Shown here: in pieces, positions 6,345-46,899 of the stretch
How positions within the stretch are numbered: the first letter of the stretch is position 1
Layout: every line of letters begins with the position of its first letter
Source: an uncultured Pseudomonadota bacterium
Lineage (GTDB): Bacteria; Bdellovibrionota_B; Oligoflexia; Oligoflexales; CAIMVM01
Assembly: GCA_903844895.1 (NCBI GenBank)
Contig: CAIMVM010000204.1
Span: 1 to 46,899, forward strand
DNA: 46,899 nucleotides
Direction of reading: 5' to 3'
Notes under the pieces: generated by a model
What the model was told of the DNA's origin: nothing
Databases searched by the model: none
Seen by the model: only the letters and a program-made list of their open reading frames with translations
Translations under genes and position numbers: made by a program

Positions 6345-6378
6345 CAATTTAGTTTATGATACAATTTAGTTTATGATA
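6345..6378. repeat. Perfect 17-bp tandem duplication upstream of the Fe-S oxidoreductase gene
   Basis: CAATTTAGTTTATGATA is present at 6345-6361 and again at 6362-6378 without mismatch. Each copy contains TATGAT, close to a sigma-70 -10 hexamer. The pair ends 37 bases before the ATG at 6416, so it may duplicate a promoter element or a regulator site. The repeat itself is directly visible; the role is inferred. Confidence 0.85.
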
Positions 6379-43627: not shown

Positions 43628-44014
43628 TCACGGCATTGTTAAAAGTTTTTCGGTTTGGGTGATACAGGCAAATTCTCCTTCGAGGCTTGCAAGGGCGATG
43701 CGGTGGACTGCATCGGCTTCGATGAGATGGCCTTCATAGTCTCGTCGCGGAAAGGTCGCTGTAGCGTCGGTGACGACTGTAGCAGTAAAGCCAAAATTCG
43801 CGGCCATGCGAACTGTTGTCGATACGCAATGGTCGGTGGTTAGGCCTGCAAATATAAGTTTTCTAGCATTCAGATCCGTGAGAAGAGCCTGGAGGCTAGT
43901 TCCTATAAATGCGCTATTTAACTTCTTTTTTATGACAGGCTCATGGCTTATAGGTGATGCGCATTCCATAAAATCATTGCCGACCTGGCCTGCCCGCAGC
44001 GGTGATAGAGATTA
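43628..44014 (-). pseudogene. Isochorismatase-family hydrolase, N-terminal half lost
   Basis: The 113-residue frame from ATG 43969 covers the C-terminal half of the family: EPVIKKKLNSAFIGTSL holds the catalytic Lys, and GLTTDHCVSTTVRMAANFGF holds the nucleophile Cys. In-frame upstream codons still encode SLSPLRAGQVGNDF, matching the SPLRPGQxGN loop of intact relatives, up to a TAA at 44012-44014. The N-terminal half with the catalytic Asp is missing, so the gene is most likely inactive. The next 20 codons upstream (MQTLMPMFEKDSRSGVAFR) do not look like the missing domain. Confidence 0.75.
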
Positions 44015-45605: not shown

Positions 45606-46899
45606 ATGACACTTAGCGAAGATTTTAATTTAATGATTAAAGAGGGTGAAAGTCTGACCGTTGAGTTTAAAGAAAAGTATACTTCTAAGATCGATCAGGA
45701 TATGGTTGCATTTGCAAATACGATTGGCGGCAAGATTATCCTCGGGGTGACTGATCTTGGTGCAGTGAAGGGCGAGGCTCTCTCTAATAGGATGAAAGCA
45801 GAAATTACTGATTTGGCGCAAAAATGTGACCCATCCATCGATGTTAAAATCTCTCAATTAGATAAAGTAGTCGTGATTGAAGTCAAAGAAGGTGGTGAAA
45901 AGCCATATTCCTGCTCTTCAGGGGCCTTTAAGCGTCTGGATGCAGTTACCCAAAAGCTAAAGCAAAAAGACTTGCGTATTTTATTTGACGCGTCAACAGC
46001 GAGAAGCTTTGAACAACGACCCTGTCCCGGTGCTACGATAAACGACTTGTCCTTAAAAAAAGTTAATGAATTTTGCAAAAATGCTGGAATTAAGATTCTG
46101 GTCACGGGTAAAAATATATCTAATATCATGCGAAGTTTTAGTCTGGTAAGTCAGAATGAACTGAATCATGCTTCAATTTTATTCTTCGCTTCGAGAATTG
46201 ACAGTTTTGTCCTTCACTCCCAAATACAGCTTCTTGTTTTTAAGGATCTAGTTGGAGTAGATTTTTTTGATCGAAAAGATGTAAGAGGAACCTTGCTAGA
46301 ACACTTTCAGGAGGCGGATTTTTTTCTCAGGCGTCACTTAAGCCACGGGGCCACTATCGTGGACATGAAGCGAATTGATGAGTATGAGATTCCTTCGGTG
46401 GCCTGGCGTGAAGTGATTGCAAACGCAATTATTCATAGAGACTATCGAATGTCAGGCACAGGAATTCAAGTTAAACTTTTTCCAGATAGGCTCGAGGTTG
46501 TTAGCCCAGGTGGCCTTCTAGATCATGTTACCCTAAAGAATTTCAGTGCCTTTTCCAATCGGCGCAATGAAATTATTGCGGATATGTTTGCCAGGCTGAA
46601 AATTGTTGAAAAAGCCGGTACAGGCATTGCTCGTATTCTGTCTTCCTCCAAGAAGGCCGAACTGAAAACCCCGCTTTTTGAAGATCTTGGCGGTTTTTTC
46701 AAAGTGACTTTGTATCGCCCTGTTATCAAAGCAGAAATTGGCGATTTGTCCAATAAAGGGAGTCCCAAAAGTTCACCCAAAAGTTCACCCAAAAGTTCAC
46801 CCAAAAGTTCACCCAAAAGTTCACCCAAAAGTTCACCCAAAAGTTCACCCAAAAGTTCACCCAAAAGTTCACCCAAAAGTTCACCCAAAAGTTCACCCA
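45606..46899 (+). CDS. AlbA_2 / HATPase_c_4 (RecG C-terminal-like) putative DNA-binding protein with SSPK repeat tail, partial
   Basis: The frame from ATG 45606 (AAGGG six bases ahead) is open to the window end; 431 codons are visible. Residues 1-130 form an AlbA_2 (Schlafen-like) domain: GESLTVEFKEKY then MVAFANTIGGKIILGVTDLG. A HATPase_c_4 segment follows at about 250-360: WREVIANAIIHRDY, with Asn273 in the ATP-binding N-box, and EKAGTGIARIL. From residue 389 the tetrapeptide SSPK repeats without break to the edge. Relatives place a winged helix after such a spacer, so the true C-terminus lies beyond the window. The protein is a putative transcriptional or DNA-related ATPase. Its function in the cell is not known. 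Confidence 0.9.
   Translation, partial: MTLSEDFNLMIKEGESLTVEFKEKYTSKIDQDMVAFANTIGGKIILGVTDLGAVKGEALSNRMKAEITDLAQKCDPSIDVKISQLDKVVVIEVKEGGEKPYSCSSGAFKRLDAVTQKLKQKDLRILFDASTARSFEQRPCPGATINDLSLKKVNEFCKNAGIKILVTGKNISNIMRSFSLVSQNELNHASILFFASRIDSFVLHSQIQLLVFKDLVGVDFFDRKDVRGTLLEHFQEADFFLRRHLSHGATIVDMKRIDEYEIPSVAWREVIANAIIHRDYRMSGTGIQVKLFPDRLEVVSPGGLLDHVTLKNFSAFSNRRNEIIADMFARLKIVEKAGTGIARILSSSKKAELKTPLFEDLGGFFKVTLYRPVIKAEIGDLSNKGSPKSSPKSSPKSSPKSSPKSSPKSSPKSSPKSSPKSSPKSSPKSSP
46758..46899 (+). repeat. 12-bp tandem repeat encoding SSPK, continuing past the window
   Basis: AGTTCACCCAAA begins at 46770 and repeats 10 full times plus a partial copy to the edge, all identical by eye. A degenerate copy GGGAGTCCCAAA precedes it at 46758. 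Each unit is 12 bases, so copy-number change adds or removes SSPK in frame. The total number of copies is not visible. Confidence 0.95.

Follow-up and report, generated by a model that had tools for sequence, protein, structure and literature searches.

A tandem repeat within an AlbA_2/HATPase gene as a predicted operator array for the winged helix encoded directly downstream

The array and the gene that carries it

Why does the gene of an AlbA_2/HATPase protein carry a run of identical 12-bp units within its coding sequence? The window analyzed here, 46,899 bp in length, is the complete contig C204 of a 4.23-Mb genome in 372 contigs, and the gene in question (positions 45606-46899, plus strand; 431 codons seen) is incomplete at its 3′ end, where the contig stops. 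Pfam searches identified in its product an SLFN_AlbA_2 domain (residues 15-118, plus-strand positions 45648-45959; E 3.8e-15) and a HATPase_c_4 domain (residues 284-369, plus-strand positions 46455-46712; E 4.8e-25), both of which exceed the Pfam cut-offs. The protein falls in the same ATPase family as DIP2311 (PDB 3LMM; E 3.2e-9). About 17 residues after the end of HATPase_c_4 begins a tandem array (46764-46899, plus strand) that TRF resolved as 11.3 copies of a 12-bp period, spanning 136 bp with a 100% match, and that family evidence (see below) marks as a predicted intragenic operator array. Exact AAAAGTTCACCC 12-mers, each composed of an A-tract, the core GTTCAC and a final CC and coding for KSSP, number 11 (46767-46898, plus strand); in the AGTTCACCCAAA rotation the same array counts 10 complete units plus 10 bases. 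A degenerate edge unit, AAAGGGAGTCCC, lies 5′ of the perfect units at 46755-46766 (plus strand). The open reading frame (45606-46898, plus strand) crosses the array in frame as (SSPK)n and exits the contig. The in-frame array of identical SSPK units described in the first-pass annotation is therefore real, given the perfect TRF match and the 11 perfect units, and its caution about the contig end was correct: the contig stops within the array, the 3′ part is unseen and the copy number is a minimum. Even so, with at least 11.3 copies this is the longest array in our set (2.2-8.7 copies in relatives).

Chance is excluded as the origin of the repeat, as only 2 of 537 control windows from related loci reach even a far lower periodicity. 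The copies are identical and rapid slippage turnover is likely, in agreement with the slippage origin proposed earlier. Two adjacent units were absent from all other contigs of the 4.2-Mb genome. A genome-wide search found AAAAGTTCACCC at two isolated places, as many as for the reversed control, neither of them adjoining a winged helix-turn-helix (wHTH); no motif cluster or second array of the window unit occurred elsewhere in the genome and there was, therefore, no sign of a regulon. Searches of the bin with the repeat, the wHTH protein and the wHTH profile did not recover the missing 3′ half of the gene. Paralogues in the same genome include one on contig C208 with the linker repeat peptide GKTS and one on C29 with a GVKY helix and without an array.

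Tandem arrays in the linkers of relatives

Homologues with 28-56% identity mostly end in a C-terminal wHTH that closes with G-x-x-K-G-G-x-W, and many carry directly 5′ of it a short tandem repeat whose peptide varies (NVLE, GSEK, NVPI, KFGE). Thus, the earlier placement of the array between the ATPase domain and a winged helix agrees with its position after HATPase_c_4 and with the winged helix seen in relatives, and short linker repeats do recur in this protein class. Searches with the wHTH recovered the same layout on plasmids, on viral contigs and in whole genomes belonging to the same phyla as a gammaproteobacterium, a micrarchaeon and an FCPU426 bacterium. The window protein matched nothing when the viral contigs were scanned with it; the wHTH profile recovered useful loci there. 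Our family sample comprised 103 usable genes with a matching C-terminal wHTH from bacteria, archaea, plasmids and viral contigs, or 92 nonredundant genes after removal of wHTH pairs with more than 75% identity. Strong arrays with a period of 10-14 bp were found in 58 of the 92 linkers (against the 2 of 537 nearby control windows) and 34 linkers lacked one; arrays were thus almost confined to the roughly 100 bp that precede the wHTH. Cores of a gene's own class were concentrated just before the reader, with 115 in the 100 bp 5′ of the wHTH, whereas the remaining 100-bp bins between -1500 and +1500 had 0-7 each; on the antisense strand, the bin 5′ of the wHTH had 8. The window gene shares with these relatives the place of its array, the A-tract, the length of the unit and the order of domains, and its linker is of the same 11-13-bp sense-strand type with A-tract and core; we therefore regard it as a probable case of this arrangement and infer that its unseen C-terminus would be such a wHTH.

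The arrays also leave a mark on assemblies. Among 67 contigs, 4 ended in the 130 bp upstream of the wHTH and none in the 1000 bp downstream of it. The window and L012 stop inside their arrays and a run of N splits the array of L176. The break of the window contig thus fits the family, as contigs of relatives also break at arrays. Copy number differs between related genes, with one unit in L194 and eight in L196 (one genome per species), and a Klebsiella Fic gene had no copy in the E. coli genomes searched. Two further HATPase_c_4 genes (L036, 1-2161; L054, 1501-2318) carry 12-bp arrays (RPES, AHDV) followed by a different C-terminal helix and then PDKP-SR-QK, which may represent a second reader type with the same layout.

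When the units were aligned by class, each consisted of an A-tract followed by a core of about 6 bp (CTACCC, CTAGGG, GTTCGG, (C/T)G(T/C)CGG, GTTCCC or CGCC(C/T)C). The window core, GTTCAC, has no exact fit to any common class. The reading frame of the core differs between genes and, in some, within a single gene. Frame rotation accompanies 11-bp arrays in L213, L232, L222 and L241; the four CTACCC cores of L213, for example, give unrelated peptides (...ETTQKLPRNYPETTQK). Likewise, L157 and L117 read GTTCGG alternately in two frames, as SSV and KFG, with steps of 13 and 20 bp. As the same DNA yields unrelated peptides, selection on the peptide is not the expected cause, and a helical or spacer peptide function was rejected as the main cause because the frames differ. 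The conserved entity in the linker is the DNA (A-tract plus core) and not the peptide.

These observations bear on the suggestion that copy number tunes linker length, with the array as a neutral or adaptive spacer that sets the distance between the ATPase and the winged helix. The in-frame 12-bp unit and the variable copy number among related genes agree with it, and there is a precedent in the HsdS subunits of EcoR124I/II, where an in-frame interdomain coding repeat of 12 bp, TAEL, varies in copy number and acts as a four-residue helical spacer that matters (PMC3874165). Unlike TAEL, with its conserved repeat peptide and kept frame, the relatives conserve neither: their peptides differ (SSEK, KFGE, NVLE, KTTQ, GDVT) and the DNA core is common across frames, follows a helical-turn spacing and varies in concert with the recognition helix (see below). 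Linker length as the selected trait is therefore unlikely, and such tuning would be a by-product at most. The related claim that the gene could not be switched off by a change in copy number is right for the window, where adding or losing a 12-bp unit does not shift the frame as in phase-variable simple repeats, but does not extend to relatives with 11- and 13-bp spacings or to L174 and L225, in which the N-terminal domain and the wHTH do not share a reading frame. The frame break in these two genes lies at the array, where phase variation or decay is possible.

The spacing of the cores follows the helical repeat of DNA. Among 190 consecutive core distances in 68 genes, 152 were 10-13 bp, 26 were 20-25 bp, 7 were 31-36 bp and 5 were 40-45 bp, and none fell at 14-19, 26-30 or 37-39 bp, gap windows that were set post hoc from the histogram. 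Spacings of 15 and 18 bp were missing though equally in frame, which also argues against a protein spacer. The longer spacings fitted a period of 10.9 bp best, and none of 2000 random sets was equally periodic. Some spacings of 22-26 and 33-36 bp may be two or three steps of 11-13 bp with a decayed middle copy; those of 20-21 bp (n = 17) cannot be two such steps.

Helical phasing makes action at the RNA level less likely. Here the protein would bind the repeats in its own mRNA, leading to translation repression or transcript targeting. The AlbA_2/Schlafen fold is connected to RNA in other proteins and the arrays occur in sense orientation only, although this bias may reflect the hydrophobic residues or stops that the antisense would encode. 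The phasing at about 10.9 bp, with its gaps at 14-19 and 26-30 bp, speaks against an RNA element, as do the Fic members that carry the same arrays without AlbA_2 and the covariation that maps to helix 3 of the winged helix. Taken together, we regard this reading as distinctly improbable.

Covariation of the core with the recognition helix

The hypothesis that core and recognition helix are matched was recorded before we retrieved the larger gene set. Cross-tabulation of helix class and core over all genes gave a nearly diagonal result, with off-diagonal entries mostly near zero: K[YWF] helices went with ACTACC in 13 of 17 genes, E[YWF] with CTAGGG in 3 of 4, EK with GTTCGG, GTTGGG or GTAGGG in 19 of 22, KK with GTTCCC in 2 of 3, ER with TGTCGG, CGTCGG or CGCCGG in 16 of 19 and GR with ACGCC(C/T) in all 8, counts in which the core sets of some classes were built on partly the same genes and the ER set was partly post hoc. 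In a held-out set of 60 nonredundant genes that were unused in forming the rule, ACTACC was found in 9 of 12 genes with a K[YWF] helix and in 3 of the 48 others (p=2.8e-6), GTTCGG in 6 of 9 EK genes and 5 of 51 others (p=6e-4), and CTAGGG in 1 of 2 E[YWF] genes and 0 of 58 others (p=0.033). A first pairing of ER/KR with TGTC failed on the held-out genes (p=0.58), the ER class being broader.

Because array and wHTH are adjacent and co-inherited, the association between core and helix is inflated. This raises the alternative of a neutral slippage array passed on by shared descent, with motif and helix correlated but without any recognition between them. The two elements do move jointly, and linker similarity correlates with identity over the remaining wHTH (r=0.28). 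At equal wHTH identity (0.3-0.4), however, core sharing rose from 2.6% to 12.7% and 23.8% with increasing identity at the two positions after the conserved Val/Ile (V+1 and V+2); antisense core sharing was about 1%. A partial Mantel test in which the remaining wHTH was controlled for gave r=0.33, a value reached in 0 of 5000 permutations, with the control for relatedness being approximate. An unsupervised column scan, with rest-of-wHTH identity controlled, ranked V+1 (column 28) first and V+2 (column 29) third; columns 13 and 26 were also high. Frame-independent conservation and helical phasing would, in addition, be unexpected for a neutral coding repeat. Shared descent alone is thus an explanation to which we attach little probability.

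In a confident structure model of the wHTH (pLDDT 93.7), the third helix comprises residues 25-37 and holds the variable residues. The wing is nearly invariant (R42, G44, K47, G49 and W51, in the motif R-x-G-x-x-K-x-G-x-W) and may pair with the invariant A-tract. Foldseek searches with the 53-residue wHTH yielded only winged helices of a generic kind, and no match had an E value under 0.001. The association on the sense strand of Lys with CC and of Glu with GG is what contacts of Lys to guanine and of Glu to cytosine on the other strand would produce. The core GTTCAC of the window suggests an unseen helix with Lys at V+2 and a residue other than Glu at V+1.

A portable array and reader

N-terminal domains of several kinds share the same core classes. 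Cores of the KY type are found with AlbA_2-HATPase_c_4 (L129, L126, L239) and with Fic (L128), and EK cores with AlbA_2-HATPase_c_4 (L169, L199), with Fic (L122, L084, L235) and with HATPase_c_4 in a gene with no AlbA_2 detected (L157). Two genes on plasmids of the Arcobacter group, L088 and L155, are near-identical as far as the linker and once more from +146 on; between these points L088 has GTTGGGTG with AIEK and L155 has ACTAGGGTA with GIEW, so that the array was exchanged together with the greater part of the wHTH. This natural exchange of array and wHTH (L088 versus L155/L087) adjoins hsdR. A comparable break is seen in L185/L194 and L126/L184, with flanks less alike. Further, L121 and L223 carry a second array-wHTH unit of another class just 3′ of the stop codon of the complete gene (about +190 to +419 from the wHTH start in L121; -223 to +165 in L223), which suggests that such spare units are stored alternative specificities. 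Many plasmid members lie within type I restriction operons, commonly directly before hsdR, and a Fic member from Azotobacter is a hit to the SoFic defence model (E 4e-47). In PADLOC, the AlbA_2-HATPase part of P0001 and L129 is similar to segments of certain defence models for prokaryotic Argonautes (E 4e-12 and 1e-14).

Computation established DNA-level conservation, frame independence, phasing, covariation and cassette replacement. We consider it likely that the array serves as a tandem operator read by the wHTH encoded directly downstream, the two forming a portable cassette; across the family, self-recognition of the array by its own wHTH is strongly indicated by these comparisons. The wing R-x-G-x-x-K-x-G-x-W would probably contact the constant A-tract, and the recognition helix would read the core of about 6 bp, chiefly through the two residues after the conserved Val/Ile. 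Spacing by one helical turn would place several monomers head-to-tail on one face of the DNA; binding and this assembly are both inferred from sequence. Operator and reader would be swapped jointly under AlbA_2-HATPase_c_4, HATPase_c_4 alone or Fic, with the match between them kept. Negative autoregulation would be the likeliest use: the bound protein could block transcription of the gene that encodes it and, where this lies in a type I restriction operon, of the downstream hsdR, although we see autorepression in cis as about evenly balanced between true and false. A similar balance applies to the broader proposal of a mobile cassette with a two-residue code that recombines under several effectors, occasionally with a spare, and may switch specificity while keeping its autoregulation.

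The proposed mode of binding has a parallel in small winged-helix proteins. On direct repeats, BldC molecules lie roughly one turn of DNA apart, and both BldC and RdfS assemble head-to-tail on DNA (PMC5859096, PMC11963761). Their sites are in promoters or attachment sites, however, and not in the coding sequence of their own linker. A precedent for sites within the reader's own gene is already known in phage lambda, where direct-repeat sites for the DNA-binding domain of O lie inside the O coding sequence; each unit has an A-tract, and extra iterons lengthen the protein, by 13 residues in Stx phages (PMC7466680, PMC4488673). The family described here would resemble it if its predicted sites are read by the protein's own domain; relatives of the window gene show covariation, phasing and frame independence. 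Yet lambda O has an N-terminal DNA-binding domain, 19-bp iterons, an AT-rich region and a replication origin and belongs to lambdoid phages, whereas the arrays of our family have 11-13-bp units before a C-terminal wHTH, occur in bacteria and archaea and follow unrelated N-terminal domains. The shared anatomy, with sites in the coding sequence of the presumed binder, an A-tract per unit and a unit number that changes protein length (PMC7466680, PMC4488673), could nonetheless indicate a self-encoded replication or partition site like the lambda origin inside gene O. Members are, however, Fic and AlbA_2-ATPase proteins in restriction operons and not generally replication modules, which makes such a site very improbable.

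The predicted operator arrangement is apparently widespread and undescribed. In the open-access papers searched, we found no account of the family, of an operator in its coding sequence or of a helix-matched array; such an array is likewise not described in the literature searched for the related HATPase_c_4 proteins (PDB 3LMM, DIP2311) and SoFic. If binding is confirmed, the presence in two domains of life, the readable code and the exchange of cassettes under unrelated effectors would go beyond the lambda O/ori precedent. Many genes annotated as 'ATP-binding protein', 'Fic family protein' or 'RNA-binding domain-containing protein' would then contain an operator of their own, from which each DNA target could be deduced. 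A winged-helix code could be tested on this natural collection, in which Glu would pair with GG and Lys with CC, and Tyr/Trp/Phe with CTA and Lys with GTT. The arrangement would also account for the repetitive linkers, the assembly breaks and a one-step swap of specificity without loss of self-control, and it offers a hypothesis for the self-limited expression of restriction and Fic defence operons.

The window and its genome hold other features of note. An Isochorismatase domain at 43628-43969 (minus strand) is represented by its C-terminal half only (profile positions 86-162 of 175), and the gene is probably truncated. A 17-bp perfect tandem duplication, CAATTTAGTTTATGATA, is located at window positions 6345-6378, and a further perfect 12-bp tandem repeat, CTTTCCTTGGCC, lies at the end of another contig of the same genome (L257, G000:C334).
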